In this document: positions 944 to 9,052 of the stretch, piece after piece
Layout of the letters: the number at the start of each line of letters is the position of its first letter
How positions within the stretch are numbered: the first letter of the stretch is position 1
NCBI GenBank assembly: GCA_012032855.1
Contig: JAAUQA010000098.1
Coordinates: 1 to 9,052 of the forward strand
Length of the DNA stretch: 9,052 nt
Direction of reading: 5' to 3'
DNA from: Candidatus Competibacteraceae bacterium
GTDB taxonomy: Bacteria > Pseudomonadota > Gammaproteobacteria > Competibacterales > Competibacteraceae
The notes under the pieces: model-generated
Database searches by the model: none
What the model saw: the letters and a program-made list of their open reading frames with translations, nothing else
Told to the model about the DNA's origin: nothing
Made by a program: the position numbers and the translations under genes

Positions 944-1213
944 GTGATGAACCGAAACGACATAGAGCTGTTCTCTCTTTCTTCTGAGCGCGATACAGTA
1001 CCGTCCACCCAATCGGTCAGCGCGCGTGCTCGTGGAATCGAAGTGGGTTTGCTTCATGCGTTGCTAAAGGCTGCAGGCGACCCACCGGTGCAGGTGGTAC
1101 TGTGGGACGGTCGCCAAGCCTGTACCGCATCGACACCAGTGGCGCGCATGCAGATCCATGATCGCGCTGCGTTATTCAAATTGCTACTGCAGCCGGATTT
1201 GCAATTCGGGTGA
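944..1213 (+). pseudogene. cfa: N-terminal part of frameshifted CFA-synthase-like methyltransferase
   Basis: This frame encodes the first 89 residues of a cyclopropane-fatty-acyl-phospholipid-synthase family protein and ends at TGA 1211-1213. The last residues, FKLLLQPDLQFG, match the family's conserved lead-in PDLxxGExYxxGRLxV. The continuation ELYSAGRLTVEG is found in the +1 frame from 1212. Removing one G from GGG at 1208-1210 gives TTC GGT GAA CTG and restores a single 421-residue protein. The start may be GTG 944 or ATG 947; GGAGG at 932-936 serves both. The domain is the N-terminal helical region that in E. coli Cfa contributes to dimer and membrane function. The break may be a sequencing error, a real mutation or, less likely, programmed frameshifting. 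Confidence 0.75.
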
Positions 1214-2210
1214 ACTGTATAGCGCCGGGCGACTAACTGTGGAAGGTGCACTGGTCGATTTTCTGGAAGTGCTCCAACAGACCCTGCCGGATTTCGCGAA
1301 ACGCGGCCTCTGGATGAGGTGCTTATCAAGGCTTTATATGCTGCGTCCCATTACCCTGGCACGGGCGCGGGAGAATATTTATCACCATTACGACATCGGC
1401 AACGCGTTCTACCGATTGTGGTTGGACGAACAGCTGGTCTATACCTGCGCGTATTTTCAAACGCCGATGGCCACATTGGAAGCGGCGCAAGTCGCCAAGC
1501 TCGACCATGTCTGTCGCAAGTTACAACTGCACCACGACCAAGAGGTCGTGGAGGCCGGTTGTGGTTGGGGTGCGTTGGCGTTGCACATGGCCCGACGATA
1601 CGGCGTAAAGGTAAAAGCCTATAATATTTCCAAGGAACAAATCGCCTTTGCTCGCCAACGGGCACGAGACGAGGGATTAGACAGACAAGTCGAGTTTATC
1701 GAAGGCGATTACCGGGAAATCAGTGGTGATTTCGACGCCTTCGTATCTGTCGGCATGTTGGAGCATGTGGGCCTGAACCACTATCGCGAACTCGGTCAAG
1801 TCATTGATCGTTGTCTCCGCCCCCGTGGCCGGGGGTTGATTCACACCATCGGCAGAAATCGCCCTATTCCCATGAACGCCTGGATCGAGAAACGCATTTT
1901 CCCCGGGGGTTATCCGCCGAGCCTGGGAGAGATGATGGCCATCTTCGAACCTTATCGATTTTCAGTGCTGGACGTGGAAAATTTACGGCTGCATTACGCC
2001 AAAACACTGGAACACTGGCTGACACGTTTCGAGCAGGCAGCGGATCAGGTTAAACAGATGTACGATACCGATTTCGTCCGCGCTTGGCGTTTCTATCTTG
2101 CCGGTTCCCTGACCACATTCCGGATCGGTGAATTGCAACTGTTCCAGGTCGTGTTCACTCGCTTCAACAATAACGACATCCCCTGGACCCGGGACTCTTT
2201 GTACCACTGA
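1158..2210 (+). CDS. cfa: CFA-synthase-like SAM methyltransferase, catalytic part (after frameshift)
   Basis: From about 1212 this frame carries the catalytic domain of a cyclopropane-fatty-acyl-phospholipid-synthase family enzyme. Such enzymes transfer a methyl group from S-adenosylmethionine to the double bond of an unsaturated acyl chain in a membrane phospholipid. Visible landmarks are the substrate region NIYHHYDIGNAFYRLWLD, YTCAYF (Cys codon 1446), the SAM motif GCGWG (1557-1571), SVGMLEHVG (Glu codon 1761), HTIG (His codon 1842) and HYAKTLEHW (Tyr codon 1995). These correspond to the E. coli active-site residues as I recall them. The C-terminal Cys of E. coli Cfa (Cys354) appears as Ser (codon 2106). 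The ATG at 1158 is only the mechanical open-frame start: residues 1-17 are not family-like, and the true N-terminus lies in the frame starting at 944. The stop TGA overlaps the next ATG by one base (TGATG), indicating translational coupling. Related enzymes can make methyl-branched, methylene or cyclopropane products, so the product here is uncertain. Confidence 0.88.
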   Translation: MIALRYSNCYCSRICNSGELYSAGRLTVEGALVDFLEVLQQTLPDFAKRGLWMRCLSRLYMLRPITLARARENIYHHYDIGNAFYRLWLDEQLVYTCAYFQTPMATLEAAQVAKLDHVCRKLQLHHDQEVVEAGCGWGALALHMARRYGVKVKAYNISKEQIAFARQRARDEGLDRQVEFIEGDYREISGDFDAFVSVGMLEHVGLNHYRELGQVIDRCLRPRGRGLIHTIGRNRPIPMNAWIEKRIFPGGYPPSLGEMMAIFEPYRFSVLDVENLRLHYAKTLEHWLTRFEQAADQVKQMYDTDFVRAWRFYLAGSLTTFRIGELQLFQVVFTRFNNNDIPWTRDSLYH

Positions 2211-3250
2211 TGGGCAATCGTCAGCTGCAAGTCCATGAGGTGATTATTATCGGTGGCGGCCCGGCGGGCTCCAGCTGCGCCTGGCAACTCAGACGACACG
2301 GGGTAGACTGTCTGGTGTTGGATCGACAGACTTTCCCGCGTCCCAAGTTGTGCGCCGGCTGGATTACTCCGGAGGTAGTGCGGGATTTAGCACTTGATGT
2401 CGCAGCCTACCCGCAGGGCTTAGTCACGTTTAATCGGCTGCATGTGAAACTGTGGCGGTTGGGTTTCAAACTCAACACGGTACAGCATTCCATCCGTCGC
2501 TACGAATTCGACGCGTGGTTGCTGGCCCGTAGCGGAGCGCCGGTACAAACCCACTACGCCCGACATGTCCGCTACGATAACGGCGGGTATCTCGTGGATG
2601 ACCGCTATCGCTGCCGTTATCTGGTAGGCGCCGGCGGCACCCAATGCCCGGTTTACCGGGCCCTATTCAGGGATCACAATCCGCGTGCCAAAACATTACA
2701 GGCAGTGACGTTGGAAGAAGAATTTCCCTACGACTGGCAAGATCCGGATTGCCGCTTGTGGTTTTTCGACCGGGGGCTGCCCGGCTATTCCTGGTACGTG
2801 CCCAAAGCAAACGGCTATATCAATGTCGGCGTTGGCGGTATGGCACATAAACTGAAGCAACGTCGTGATGACATCAAGAACCACTGGAGGCATTTTACGC
2901 GTCTTTTGGCGCGCCAGGGCTTGGTAACCAATCATACTTACACTCCCGGTGGTTACAGCTACTATCTGCGCGAAAACGTGGACGTCGGGCAAGTAGGGAA
3001 TGCTTTTGTGGTGGGTGATGCCGCCGGGCTAGCGACTCGCGACCTGTGTGAAGGGATTGGACCGGCGGTAAAAAGCGGCCTGTTGGTCGCCGATGTGATT
3101 GCTGGTAAGACCCCGGTTTACTCACTGAACGAGGTGGCGAAAACCAGTGGCAGTGGTCTCATGAGTCAGTTGTTGGAATACATGTTCATTACCCGCCGGG
3201 AACGGGAACGTAGGCTGAATAAAATCCCCGCCTCCGCAACCGGCGAGTGA
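2210..3250 (+). CDS. Geranylgeranyl-reductase-family FAD oxidoreductase
   Basis: A 346-residue flavoprotein of the geranylgeranyl reductase / p-hydroxybenzoate-hydroxylase fold group. It shows the FAD Rossmann motif GGGPAG at residues 15-20, an acidic residue at the end of strand 2 (LVLDR, Asp38), the family loop PRPKLCAGWITP around residues 43-54, the mid-protein motif YVPKANGYINVGVGG at 196-210, and the second FAD motif VVGDAAGLA with Asp270. Family members use NAD(P)H or ferredoxin to saturate C=C bonds of isoprenoid chains; some relatives hydroxylate or desaturate. It is somewhat shorter than typical members (about 390 residues) and has no membrane segment, though the Arg-rich C-terminus could touch the membrane. 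The start ATG overlaps the stop of the methyltransferase gene and has no good Shine-Dalgarno, so coupling is likely. Its place between a lipid methyltransferase and an acyl-activating fusion suggests a lipid acyl-chain substrate; that is inference. Confidence 0.88.
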   Translation: MGNRQLQVHEVIIIGGGPAGSSCAWQLRRHGVDCLVLDRQTFPRPKLCAGWITPEVVRDLALDVAAYPQGLVTFNRLHVKLWRLGFKLNTVQHSIRRYEFDAWLLARSGAPVQTHYARHVRYDNGGYLVDDRYRCRYLVGAGGTQCPVYRALFRDHNPRAKTLQAVTLEEEFPYDWQDPDCRLWFFDRGLPGYSWYVPKANGYINVGVGGMAHKLKQRRDDIKNHWRHFTRLLARQGLVTNHTYTPGGYSYYLRENVDVGQVGNAFVVGDAAGLATRDLCEGIGPAVKSGLLVADVIAGKTPVYSLNEVAKTSGSGLMSQLLEYMFITRRERERRLNKIPASATGE

Positions 3251-6060
3251 GCATGACTGTTCCTGCCGTTTCTACCCCGTCAGCCGAGCAAACCGCAGCA
3301 CTACTGCTTGAAACCATCACCGCATTAGTGCGCGAGGCGCGGCAAGGTCGGGTAGGATTGATCTCACTGGACAGCCATCTGGAACGCGACATCGGTTTGG
3401 ATAGCCTGAGTCGTGCGGAGTTGTTGCTGCGCCTGGAGAGAGACTTCGCCATCGAACTGCCGCAAACCGCGCTGATTACGGAAACGCCCCGCGAGTTGTT
3501 GCGGTTGTTATTGACCGCCGACGGTAACTCCGGTCCAGCCACGGAAGCTGATCTGGTCATTCAGCCGCTAGGCGAAACGGAATCTGACCCCAGCCAAGCC
3601 GGTACATTATTGGACGTGTTGGATTGGCATGTTCGTGCTCACCCACAGCGAGTCTATCTGTACCTGTACGGCAAGAGCGATCGCCCTGAGGAAATCAGCT
3701 ACGCTGCGTTACACGAGGGCGCGCGGGCGGTGGCTGTGGGTCTACAGGGACGAGGTCTTTTGCCCGGTCAGACCGTAGCCATCATGCTGCCCACCGGGCA
3801 AGACTATTTCCTCAGTTTTTTCGGCACCTTACTGGCCGGCGGCATTCCGGTTCCCATTTATCCCCCGACCCGGCCCTCCCAACTCGAAGAGCATCTGCGT
3901 CGCCATAGCAAAATTCTTGACAATGCCCAAACGCCGGTACTGATTACCGTGCCCGAGGCACAGGCCGTTGCCCGTTTGTTGCAAACCCAACTCGATACGT
4001 TGCGCCATATAGCGACGGTGGAAGAATTAACGGTCGCCGGGGATAATGCTTGGGCTAGGCCGCTGGTGCGTACACAGGACATCGCGTTTTTGCAATACAC
4101 CTCTGGCAGTACCGGTGACCCGAAAGGGGTGATGCTGTCTCACGCCAATCTGTTGGCCAATATCCGCGCTATGGGGCAACGTATTCAGGCGAGTTCCAAC
4201 GATGTATTCGTCAGTTGGCTGCCGCTTTATCACGATATGGGGTTAATCGGCGCTTGTTTAGGCAGTCTGTATTATGCTTTCCCGTTGGTTGTGATGTCGC
4301 CGTTGAGTTTTCTGGCCCGACCTGCCCGTTGGTTACGGGCTATTCATCGCCATCACGGGACTTTATCGGCAGCACCGAATTTCGCCTATGAACTGTGCTT
4401 GCGGAACATTCCGGACAAAGCGCTGGAAGGTTTGGATTTAAGCTCTTGGCGGTTGGCGATCAACGGAGCAGAACCGGTAAATCCAGGCACATTGGAGCGC
4501 TTTATCCACCGCTTCGAACCGTATGGTTTCCGTCCCGAAGCGATGGCGCCCGTATATGGTCTAGCCGAAAGTTCAGTTGGCTTGGCGCTGCATCCGCCGG
4601 CTCGCGGGGTCATCATTGACCATATTGAGCGCGACGCCTTTATGAAAACGGGTCTAGCTGTACCGGCAGGTGACGACAATCCCCGTGCACTTTGCTTTGC
4701 CGCTTGCGGACAACCGTTGGCTGAGCATCAAATTCGGGTCGTAGACGAGCAGGGGCGTGAACTACCCGAGCGTCAGGAGGGTCGGTTGGAGTTTCAAGGC
4801 CCATCAGCCACCAGCGGATATTATCGTAACCCTGAAGCGACTCGTCGGTTGTTCCGAGGTGATTGGTTGGACTCCGGAGATCGCGCTTATCTGGCTGGTG
4901 GCGATGTGTATATCACCGGTCGGGTCAAGGAGATGATCATTCGCGGTGGACGTAATATTTTTCCCTATGAGTTGGAAAGCGCTGTCGGTGACATCGCCGG
5001 TATTCGGCGCGGCAACGTGGCGGTGTTTGCCAGCGACGATCCCGCCTCAGGAACCGAGCGTCTAGTCGTCGTGGCCGAAACCCGCACCACCGAGATGGAT
5101 GCTCAACAACAGTTACGGGAACGGATTCAATCCGTCGGCGTCGATCTGCTGGGCTTACCGCCCGATGAAGTGGTATTGGTGCCGCCGCACACCGTACTCA
5201 AAACGTCCAGCGGTAAAATTCGTCGGGCAACGATGCGAGAACTCTTTGAACGCAAAGCCCTGGGGCAGGGGCGGCGATCCGTGCGTTGGCAAGCGATCCG
5301 GCTGGCCGCGGTGAGCATTTGGCCTCCACTGCGACGCAGTTTGCGTAAGCTGGGGGAGTTTTTATATGCCGGCTATGCTTGGGTTTTGCTGGGCGTAGCG
5401 GCTTTGCCACTGTGGCTAGGCGTCATGGTGTTGCCCAACCGTGATCAACGCTGGGCATTAGCACGTACCATCGCCCGACTGGTCAGCCGCCTGGCTGGTA
5501 TTCGCCTGGGCATTCACGGATTGACCCATTTGGCCGGCAATCAGCCGTGTCTATTAGTATCCAATCATGCCAGTTACCTGGACAGTCTCGTGTTAGCGGC
5601 TGTATTACCTGGTCGATTCAGCTATGTGGCCAAGCGGGAATTGCGGGATAATCTGTGGGTGCGATTACCGTTGGAACGGCTGGACACGGTATTTGTCGAG
5701 CGATTCGATTTGCAACAAAGCGTTGCAGAGGGAGAGCGGGTCACACAAGCCGTTCAACAAGGACGCTCATTGGTGTTCTTTCCCGAAGGGACGTTTCGCC
5801 GTATGCCGGGTTTGCAACCGTTTCGGATGGGTGCTTTTGTGGTTGCAGCGCAAACGGCTGTGCCCGTTGTACCAGTGACGATTCGCGGAACGCGATCACT
5901 ATTACGGGCGCATTCATGGTTCCCGCGCCGTGGTTCCGTGCAGGTTGTGATCGGCGAACCGATTGCGCCGACCGGTCAAGACTGGCAAGCTGCGGTGCAG
6001 TTGCGTGATGCAGCACGCGCAGTGATTTTGCACCATTGCGGAGAGCCGGATTTGGGATAA
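3247..6060 (+). CDS. ACP - fatty-acyl-AMP ligase - PlsC acyltransferase fusion
   Basis: A 937-residue three-domain protein. Residues ~10-92 form an acyl carrier protein with the phosphopantetheine site GLDSL (Ser53). Residues ~115-680 form an adenylate-forming ligase closest in appearance to fatty-acyl-AMP ligases. Its motifs are YTSGSTGDPKG (284-294), SWLPLYHDMGLIG, PNFAYELC, YGLAESS (437-443), SGD (Asp545), GRVKEMIIRGGRN and the C-terminal catalytic Lys of SSGKIRR (Lys657). A hydrophobic segment at ~706-729 (probably membrane-anchoring) leads into a PlsC/LPLAT acyltransferase with NHASYLD (773-779, His774/Asp779) and FPEGTF (845-850). Expected chemistry: ATP-dependent adenylation of a free fatty acid, loading onto the in-cis carrier, then acyl transfer to a glycerophospholipid-type acceptor at the membrane. 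E. coli Aas combines acyl-ACP synthetase and acyltransferase in the opposite order and lacks a carrier domain. GTG 3247 overlaps the upstream stop by 4 nt (GTGA); ATG 3253 is an alternative start. Neither has a strong RBS, again suggesting coupling. Confidence 0.93.
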   Translation: MSMTVPAVSTPSAEQTAALLLETITALVREARQGRVGLISLDSHLERDIGLDSLSRAELLLRLERDFAIELPQTALITETPRELLRLLLTADGNSGPATEADLVIQPLGETESDPSQAGTLLDVLDWHVRAHPQRVYLYLYGKSDRPEEISYAALHEGARAVAVGLQGRGLLPGQTVAIMLPTGQDYFLSFFGTLLAGGIPVPIYPPTRPSQLEEHLRRHSKILDNAQTPVLITVPEAQAVARLLQTQLDTLRHIATVEELTVAGDNAWARPLVRTQDIAFLQYTSGSTGDPKGVMLSHANLLANIRAMGQRIQASSNDVFVSWLPLYHDMGLIGACLGSLYYAFPLVVMSPLSFLARPARWLRAIHRHHGTLSAAPNFAYELCLRNIPDKALEGLDLSSWRLAINGAEPVNPGTLERFIHRFEPYGFRPEAMAPVYGLAESSVGLALHPPARGVIIDHIERDAFMKTGLAVPAGDDNPRALCFAACGQPLAEHQIRVVDEQGRELPERQEGRLEFQGPSATSGYYRNPEATRRLFRGDWLDSGDRAYLAGGDVYITGRVKEMIIRGGRNIFPYELESAVGDIAGIRRGNVAVFASDDPASGTERLVVVAETRTTEMDAQQQLRERIQSVGVDLLGLPPDEVVLVPPHTVLKTSSGKIRRATMRELFERKALGQGRRSVRWQAIRLAAVSIWPPLRRSLRKLGEFLYAGYAWVLLGVAALPLWLGVMVLPNRDQRWALARTIARLVSRLAGIRLGIHGLTHLAGNQPCLLVSNHASYLDSLVLAAVLPGRFSYVAKRELRDNLWVRLPLERLDTVFVERFDLQQSVAEGERVTQAVQQGRSLVFFPEGTFRRMPGLQPFRMGAFVVAAQTAVPVVPVTIRGTRSLLRAHSWFPRRGSVQVVIGEPIAPTGQDWQAAVQLRDAARAVILHHCGEPDLG

Positions 6061-6098
6061 GGACACGATGGCATTCTGCCTTGCAAGAGGTAAAGACG

Positions 6099-6302
6099 AT
6101 GAACACAACGGTACTGGATCGAGAGATTAACTACTCGGATAGCGGCGGCCAACCGATGGCGGATAATACCAAGCAGTTTCGCTGGATTGTGACGATTGAA
6201 AACGGCCTGGAGGTGTTGTTTGCCGACCGATCGGATGTGTTCGTGGAAAACTTGGATAACCGGGATAAGTGGTATGCGCAAGCCCAAATTCACCGGACAT
6301 AA
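6099..6302 (+). CDS. 67-residue protein of unknown function, last gene of the lipid operon
   Basis: The protein begins MNTTVLDREINYSD and continues QFRWIVTIENGLEVLFADR, ending AQAQIHRT. I do not recognise a family. It is soluble and acidic, with no signal peptide or transmembrane stretch. The central part alternates hydrophobic and polar residues as in a small beta sheet (RWIVTIENGLEVLF). The frame is open from 6036, but ATG 6099 is chosen because AGAGG at 6086-6090 lies 8 nt upstream and the extension would overlap the acyltransferase end. It starts 38 nt after the fusion gene's stop on the same strand, so it is probably co-transcribed. A stand-alone role or accessory role in lipid remodelling cannot be told apart from sequence. 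Confidence 0.7.
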   Translation: MNTTVLDREINYSDSGGQPMADNTKQFRWIVTIENGLEVLFADRSDVFVENLDNRDKWYAQAQIHRT

Positions 6303-7567: not shown

Positions 7568-9052
7568 ATGCTAAGAGCAAAATTCCGTAAATTAGGTATG
7601 GCTGCTGCGGTGTCAGCGGCTATCGGTATCGGTAGTCTGGCTGGTCCAGCTGCCCATGCCGTTAATCTGGCCCCCGATGGGTTGGGTGAAGTTGCGCTGT
7701 TCCAATACTACACAGCACGGGGTAGTTGGCAGACCTTCTTCCGTATAATTAATACCAGTGATGACATGGTGCCCGTCAAGGTGCGTTTCCGTCGGGCTAC
7801 CGACAGTGAAGACGTGCTGGACTTTGTGGTGGCCTTATCCCCTCGTGATATGTGGGTGGCCTGGACCGACAGCAATGTCGACGGCGCGGGCAATCCCGGT
7901 TTGATTACCTGGGATACCTCCTGTCTATCGCCCGCCCCCCAGCCGGGCAATCTGAGCGGTTGGGTTTCAACTCCGGGTACCGATCGTAAGTACGTGACCT
8001 TCAAAGACCCTGCTGGCGATGAAGGCCATGTTGAGATGATCGCCCTGGGACGCACCGGGCCGCTGCTGAACACCATTGGCACGGGTCTGTATGTGGACAC
8101 CCTGCATGGGCCAGACGATAGGCCGAGTTGTACCGTGTTCCCTGGCTCGTTCACGCCAGGAGGCGCCAGTTTCCAGGATAAGATATCGACTTCGCTGCAA
8201 TTCCTGGAACCCAACAATGTTCTAAAGACGAACGGCTACTTGATTAATCGTCCTACCGGTCAGGGCTTCGGTTACGACCCGGTGATGTTGGCGAATTTCT
8301 TCAATCCGATTCTGATCGACGACTCAATCCCTGCATTACTTGGCGAGTTCTTCACCGCTCCCCCGGATTTCACTTATCCGGATGACATCGGTTCGCCATT
8401 GATCGCGGCTTTGTTCGACGAAGGTTCGCCGAACCTGAACTTTACCTGGCCGCGCGTGTCGCAGGTCCAGGTGGATACCCCGTTTAATCTGCTTAATCTG
8501 GTGGAAGAGCTTCTGGAAGGCGGCGATGACCTTCAAATTCCTGGTCCTACCACTGTTTATGACGAATGGGACCGTGGTATTGATGCGGTGTCCGCTGTGC
8601 TGACCCGCAAATCGGTTATCAACGAATGGGCGGCTCGGGAAACCGTTTCCGTTGGCCAACCTGTTAACTTCTACGAGACGGAGTGGGTGGTTACTTTCCC
8701 GACCCGCTACCCGCGCTCTCAGAATTTCTATTTCCCATTTGCGGATGACGATCCCGCCGTTGCTCCTTTCTCTGACGGCGTCACCCCCATCCATACGGCA
8801 TTGTGGAACCGCGAGGAACGCACCAACAGTTGTGTGTCCGGTATTGGCCAGCAAACCAACTGCCAGCCGAACAACGAGCTGCCTCATGAAGTCAACGTAA
8901 TTACTTTCCGGGAAGAAAGCCGTGCACTGGGATTTGAGGCCAACCGGCTCGATTCGCAAGTGAAGACCAACATTCCAGAGGCCCTAATGCCGCTGCCCTT
9001 TACGCCGGGCGAATGGCTGGGTTGGATGGAAATGACCTTCACTGGGGCACAG
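7568..9052 (+). CDS. Large exported protein of unknown function, partial at right edge
   Basis: An uninterrupted frame of 495 codons runs to the window end without a stop. AAGGAGA at 7554-7560 lies 7 nt before ATG. Residues 1-31 form a signal peptide: basic n-region MLRAKFRK, an Ala/Gly-rich core, and cleavage AHA|VN after residue 31. The mature N-terminus (GEVALFQYYTARGSWQTFF, then IINTSDDMVPVKVRFRR and DVLDFVVALSPRDMWVAW) looks like a group of exported hypothetical proteins seen in Gammaproteobacteria. Those begin with a 'GEVLIFPYYT...VKVRF...VLDF...LSP.DVW' pattern; this recollection is not a database match. A few Cys (CLSPAP, SCTVF, NSCVSG/TNCQPN) could form disulfides in the periplasm or outside the cell. 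Any C-terminal sorting or anchor signal lies beyond the window, so its location on the surface or in the periplasm is open. It may be transcribed from its own promoter in the 273-bp gap. Confidence 0.85.
   Translation, partial: MLRAKFRKLGMAAAVSAAIGIGSLAGPAAHAVNLAPDGLGEVALFQYYTARGSWQTFFRIINTSDDMVPVKVRFRRATDSEDVLDFVVALSPRDMWVAWTDSNVDGAGNPGLITWDTSCLSPAPQPGNLSGWVSTPGTDRKYVTFKDPAGDEGHVEMIALGRTGPLLNTIGTGLYVDTLHGPDDRPSCTVFPGSFTPGGASFQDKISTSLQFLEPNNVLKTNGYLINRPTGQGFGYDPVMLANFFNPILIDDSIPALLGEFFTAPPDFTYPDDIGSPLIAALFDEGSPNLNFTWPRVSQVQVDTPFNLLNLVEELLEGGDDLQIPGPTTVYDEWDRGIDAVSAVLTRKSVINEWAARETVSVGQPVNFYETEWVVTFPTRYPRSQNFYFPFADDDPAVAPFSDGVTPIHTALWNREERTNSCVSGIGQQTNCQPNNELPHEVNVITFREESRALGFEANRLDSQVKTNIPEALMPLPFTPGEWLGWMEMTFTGAQ

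Follow-up and report, generated by a model that had tools for sequence, protein, structure and literature searches.

How much of a lipid-remodelling pathway is encoded where a cyclopropane fatty acid (CFA)-type methyltransferase, a flavoprotein and an acylating fusion protein follow one another on one strand? The question is raised by a 9,052-nucleotide (nt) stretch of DNA from Candidatus Competibacteraceae bacterium (assembly GCA_012032855.1, contig JAAUQA010000098.1; hereafter the window), in which an earlier note had read the three genes as a joint pathway. Mid-chain methyl-branched fatty acids, such as 10-methylpalmitate, are membrane biomarkers. Our analyses favour a narrower answer, in which the first two genes are quite probably a tmpBA operon for 10-methyl chains whose tmpB copy is frameshifted, the fusion gene being separate from it. 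This assignment is proposed because the pair is conserved, because its methyltransferase falls in a clade of paired proteins, because partners have been exchanged between types, and because gene order, protein types, the fold of the flavoprotein and the active-site motifs of the methyltransferase all agree with it.

The tmpBA (ten-methyl palmitate) operon consists of the CFA-type methyltransferase TmpB and of TmpA, which resembles the geranylgeranyl reductases of archaea (Blitzblau et al., 2021, PMC7791843; all statements from this source refer to its available part). Operons from Marinobacter hydrocarbonoclasticus, Thiohalospira halophila and three Desulfobacteraceae were tested, and four of these five produced 10-methylenepalmitate in Escherichia coli (PMC7791843). 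In the window, TmpB would use S-adenosylmethionine to methylate a monounsaturated phospholipid chain near C10, giving a 10-methylene chain, the product established for other TmpB proteins (Blitzblau et al., 2021, PMC7791843), and the flavoprotein TmpA would then reduce the methylene double bond to yield a saturated 10-methyl chain. The fusion would be a separate phospholipid acylation gene placed next to tmpBA in this lineage, which the pathway would not require. The earlier note knew of no described pathway with such a gene set; this has to be corrected, as both protein types, and their order, recur in tmpBA (PMC7791843). Its suggestion of methyl-branching chemistry is the best reading and likely right.

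Conservation and phylogeny of the gene pair

Relatives of the flavoprotein were sought in a collection with one genome per species (84,980 species), which returned 366, the best 80 loci being kept. At 75 of these 80 loci a CFA-type methyltransferase gene precedes that of the flavoprotein on the same strand by no more than 700 nt, and at 72 by no more than 60 nt, these distances being measured between longest open reading frames (ORFs), many of which begin too far upstream and seem to overlap. As for the exceptions, L008 and L058 begin at or near a contig edge, the methyltransferase of L061 is adjacent but divergently oriented, that of L037 is encoded elsewhere in the genome, and for L078 none was found. 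We found no third conserved gene near the pair: apart from its two members and the frames overlapping them, no neighbour family within 7 kb was present at more than 12 of the 80 loci.

The association was also observed when 369 genomes were sampled evenly from a single class, presumably Gammaproteobacteria, as the Thiocapsa genome of locus L033 is at its centre (G001). TmpB-like proteins (E <= 1e-80) were detected in 54 of these genomes, TmpA-like proteins (E <= 1e-45) in 39 and both in 36 (Fisher p = 6e-33, ancestry ignored); identical size and handles indicate that the TmpB, TmpA and fusion counts all concern one set of 369 genomes. According to the matched coordinates, TmpA follows TmpB on the same strand within 101 nt in 31 of the 36 genomes with both. 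Three sampled genomes have TmpA without TmpB, including one (G010) in which a methyltransferase of a second type, described below, adjoins the flavoprotein (locus L169).

To place the methyltransferase, a tree of 72 rows longer than 300 amino acids was reconstructed, in which the large paired group is represented by alternate rows. The broken gene of L060 enters twice, through its two overlapping ORFs, and the unpaired rows were drawn solely from the 30 returned loci (14 genomes) of a CFA-like search. The methyltransferase of the window branches within a clade of 52 of the 72 rows (support 100/99), composed of 50 same-strand pairs, the one divergent neighbour and the window itself. This clade excludes 13 unpaired CFA-like paralogues, which come from 10 of the 14 genomes. 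A second methyltransferase type, 38-43% identical to that of the window (L006, L016, L018, L028 with its duplicate L169, L053 and L074), adjoins the same flavoprotein type as the main clade. Conversely, the main methyltransferase clade also has flavoproteins of a second type (32-39% identity) as partners. This two-way partner exchange is what a shared substrate would allow. The methyltransferase and flavoprotein, which the earlier note had set together, are therefore upheld as a conserved unit by the 80 flavoprotein loci, by 36 of the 39 sampled flavoprotein genomes and by the tree.

Two tmpB rows from metagenome-assembled genomes labelled Polyangiaceae (L066) and Thermoplasmata (L069) are nested among gammaproteobacterial rows, a placement that probably reflects binning contamination rather than transfer.

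Protein families and reading frames at the locus

The flavoprotein gene scores 118 bits against TIGR02032, the geranylgeranyl-reductase-like flavin adenine dinucleotide (FAD) family, below its cut-off of 158.8, and geranylgeranyl reductases are the top matches in the fold comparison. Cys48 in KLCAGW, Glu169, Glu171 and the EGI-P motif are invariant across 28 aligned tmpA rows. The models of isoprenoid-type enzymes are much further away (MenJ, 67.8 bits for a cut-off of 700; BchP-ChlP, 63.4 for 343.3; DGGGPL reductase, 38.7 for 580). The earlier note would have given up its proposal for a true isoprenoid reductase of a quinone or chlorophyll pathway, and, no tree with such enzymes having been built, the MenJ and BchP scores do not place the flavoprotein there. 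A tblastn search of 72,556 plasmid records retrieved no tmpA relative at E <= 1e-15.

The methyltransferase matches CMAS (PF02353, E 2e-82), and its 3' piece carries the CFA active-site motifs YTCAY, GMLEHVG, LIHTIG and HYAKTL, which align with the solved CFA synthases 7qos, 5z9o and 6bqc and are conserved across the tmpB clade, in an alignment that omitted L060, L103 and L104. In this motif alignment, the residues of the CFA bicarbonate site, as we presume them to be assigned, are also kept in the window. Against the NCBIfam CFA synthase models the scores are 335.5, 275.9 and 262.1 bits for cut-offs of 600, 400 and 650, respectively, with a query devoid of the N-terminal piece, which lowers them.

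The reading frame of tmpB is interrupted. The ORF of its 5' piece (944-1213) terminates after ...DLQFG, at a point where nine aligned relatives go on as FG-D/E, and the remainder resumes in another frame inside ORF 1158-2210; where blastp gave a match, the 5' piece is 31-53% identical to the CFA ORFs of relatives. A single extra base in GGGT at 1208-1211 explains the split in this alignment. Because the nine relatives are intact at this site, a sequencing or assembly error, or a recent mutation damaging this copy, is the likely origin of the frameshift. A conserved or programmed frameshift was considered and ruled out, as it is absent from these nine sequences. The paired methyltransferase is also found in two ORFs, apparently broken, at L050 (1193-2500) and L060 (7037-8325).

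Features of the locus within the 9,052-nt window, with the basis of each assignment
Feature	Position	Strand	Basis or remark
CFA-type methyltransferase (tmpB)	944-2210	+	two ORF pieces; frameshifted
tmpB 5' piece, N-terminal domain; out-of-frame stop at end	944..1213	+	aligns with N-terminus of nine relatives
tmpB frameshift site, GGGT	1208..1211	+	one extra base; alignment with nine relatives
tmpB 3' piece, intact S-adenosylmethionine-methyltransferase/CMAS domain (ORF residues 69-331)	1158..2210	+	domain match, motifs, tree
tmpA, geranylgeranyl-reductase-fold FAD protein, putative methylene (C=C) reductase	2210..3250	+	
Acyl carrier protein (ACP) - fatty acyl-AMP ligase (FAAL) - PlsC-type acyltransferase fusion, 937-amino-acid ORF	3247..6060	+	domain matches
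67-amino-acid ORF, no Pfam/NCBIfam match; operon membership unproven	6099..6302	+	

The domain assignments that the earlier note had made for the three genes agree with their Pfam and NCBIfam matches, and the genes do share one strand, although the frameshift in the methyltransferase had been missed. The overlaps of 1 and 4 nt given in that note stand in part. The tmpB/tmpA junction is indeed a 1-nt overlap (TGATG at 2208-2212), whereas that between tmpA and the fusion amounts to 4 nt only with the GTG start at 3247 and to zero with the in-frame ATG at 3253, the later start fitting the size of the database protein P0121 (935 amino acids).

Elsewhere in the window, a small DUF465 protein (PF04325) is encoded at 464-709, upstream of the tmpBA pair, and a long ORF at 7568-9052, with a signal-peptide-like start as judged by eye, runs off the window end and has no match in Pfam or NCBIfam. 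The Rfam scan at gathering thresholds found no structured RNA in the window, and the repeat search recovered short imperfect repeats only, which we judged to be due to chance.

The fusion gene and the alternative explanations

The fusion unites PP-binding, AMP-binding and PlsC-type acyltransferase domains in one 937-amino-acid ORF. Compared with solved chains, its ligase is closest to fatty acyl-AMP ligases (3pbk, E 3e-86; FadD32, 5ey9, 2e-74), the first chains named as CoA synthetases coming behind them at about 1e-31; 7r7g and 3kxw, which it matches better than 3pbk, are presumably FAALs as well. From these domains, the enzyme would convert a free fatty acid to acyl-AMP, load it onto its own ACP domain and pass it to a lysophospholipid. 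Of the 369 genomes, 66 have a match to the fusion (E <= 1e-100; G042, G101 and G315 match part of the protein only), and a hand count placed it in 9 of the 18 genomes with a TmpB-like protein and no TmpA. The available part of a review on aminolipids (PMC11631085) offers no explanation for it.

According to the earlier note, all three genes form one lipid-remodelling pathway, the fusion supplying or re-attaching the chain that TmpB and TmpA modify. The layout of the window, with three same-strand genes separated by short gaps or none, is in line with this idea, and a second lineage may hold both parts on one contig, as a flavoprotein match (P0005, 75%) and a fusion match (P0123, 71%) each come with a longest contig of 43,324 bases. 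In addition, the fusion is over-represented with TmpB-like proteins (20 of 54 genomes vs 46 of the 315 others, p = 2e-4, ancestry again ignored). Its co-occurrence with TmpA is, however, weak (11 of 39, p = 0.065; 5 of 17, p = 0.17, in an earlier and narrower count), and the joint pathway gains no support from the inspection of other loci. Across the 80 flavoprotein loci, of which 70 extend for 1 kb or more past the flavoprotein and 10 for less, the fusion was never found beside the pair. Neither member of the pair was found beside the fusion at 30 fusion loci with flanks of about 1.5 kb (at 28 of them both flanks reach at least 1 kb), nor in 20 longer stretches, 18 of which surround loci already among those 30 and whose flanks span 1.3 to 9.3 kb. 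In 4 of these 20 stretches a second AMP-ligase-like ORF adjoins the fusion, and no other conserved partner was seen in them. The sampled genome with the closest fusion is G082, and of the 40 genomes of its order a single one, G417, has tmpA. In G417 tmpB lies upstream of tmpA, 3.7 kb past tmpA are free of the fusion, which is on another contig, and tmpA is present as two overlapping contig-end pieces, so that two copies are possible. The three-gene pathway consequently appears unlikely to us. We think it similarly improbable that in this lineage the fusion and tmpBA are coupled, with the fusion exchanging chains by reloading unsaturated or TmpB/TmpA-modified ones onto lysophospholipids; if true, such coupling would run methyl-branching and phospholipid remodelling as one cycle. 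From these comparisons, the fusion looks like a lineage-specific neighbour of tmpBA, outside the conserved pair.

The chemistry of the pair itself could also be read otherwise. An oxidative flavoprotein, which would desaturate the methylated chain as happens when furan fatty acids are made, is a very doubtful candidate, since the top fold and NCBIfam matches of the flavoprotein are reductases. Moreover, in the available part of PMC8092127, saturated 10-Me-C16:0 is the larger component in Thioalkalivibrio versutus at 30 C (19.3% of the fatty acids vs 1.7%; 3.4% vs 3.9% at 10 C), in a strain whose genes are unchecked. The same source reports none detected in T. nitratis (PMC8092127), and we found the pair in T. 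sulfidiphilus ALJ17 (L068). The least probable of the alternatives is that the methyltransferase makes an ordinary cyclopropane while the flavoprotein acts on another substrate, such as a quinone, carotenoid or isoprenoid. TmpB does retain the CFA active-site motifs, and its nearest NCBIfam models are cyclopropane synthases; nevertheless, both proteins fall widely short of the relevant cut-offs, those of the cyclopropane synthase models (with scores lowered by the missing N-terminal piece of the query) and those of the isoprenoid reductase models. In addition, the strict pairing and the separation from the unpaired paralogues argue for a shared substrate, and tested TmpB proteins give 10-methylene chains (PMC7791843).

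The assignment of the window's first two genes to tmpBA must itself be set against several observations that weigh against it. No 10-methyl product was obtained in E. coli from any of the five tested operons, and the tmpA genes were inactive in yeast (PMC7791843). The tested TmpB and TmpA proteins were not recognised among the best 120 of 5351 proteins, the best 120 of 7949 proteins or the best 80 of 366 loci, and it is on architecture and fold, rather than on direct comparison with tested proteins, that the pair is assigned to tmpBA. The profile search with tmpA is topped by a halogenase (5buk, E 4e-15), above the reductase-like 3oz2 (6e-13), the reductase role of TmpA being putative and the methyl-branched lipids of this organism being predicted. 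In the window, moreover, tmpB is frameshifted. Regarding the surveys, the statistics of the 369 genomes ignore shared ancestry, TmpB and TmpA are on different contigs in 5 of the 36 genomes with both, 7 of the 57 paired tree rows lie outside the main clade, as the second methyltransferase type, and 18 of the 369 genomes have a TmpB-like protein with no TmpA detected. In five of these 18 genomes the identity to the query is just 42-44%, and the protein may be a CFA enzyme of another type; TmpB without TmpA may yield methylene or cyclopropane chains only.

Implications and comparison with described systems

The kind of product guessed in the earlier note is likely right, the pair is real and conserved, and the fusion looks like a local addition. 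The TmpB-TmpA pair is common, both proteins being present in 36 of the 369 genomes sampled from one class. One TmpB clade is served by two quite different types of TmpA, and one of these also serves a methyltransferase of a second type. Many natural pairs are available for choosing a TmpA that is functional in a laboratory host, and this variety makes the question of the TmpA reductase and its electron donor directly testable.

Among described enzymes, Aas of E. coli is an acyl-ACP synthetase/lysophospholipid acyltransferase that works on a fatty acid and a lysophospholipid. Like the fusion, it joins a ligase and a PlsC-type acyltransferase in one chain, although with the reverse domain order, and the fusion differs from it by its built-in ACP domain and by a ligase nearest to fatty acyl-AMP ligases. 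The archaeal geranylgeranyl reductases and reductase-like proteins (3oz2, 3atq) are 19-20% identical to tmpA, which is a shorter protein, scores far below the corresponding NCBIfam cut-offs and has a fatty-acyl methyltransferase as its partner gene. The bfaAB/tmsAB genes of Actinobacteria likewise combine a methyltransferase and a flavoprotein to make 10-methyl chains (10-methylstearate); however, their gene order is reversed, and BfaA has no meaningful homology to TmpA according to the available part of PMC7791843.

For tmpB and 10-methyl fatty acids, a search of a PubMed Central library from 2019 onwards retrieved solely PMC7791843, with no later work on TmpA among its papers. With the tmpBA operon described there the window shares the protein types, their order (methyltransferase, then flavoprotein) and their common strand, and its flavoprotein likewise resembles archaeal geranylgeranyl reductases, whereas it differs by the frameshifted tmpB and by the ACP-FAAL-PlsC gene downstream.

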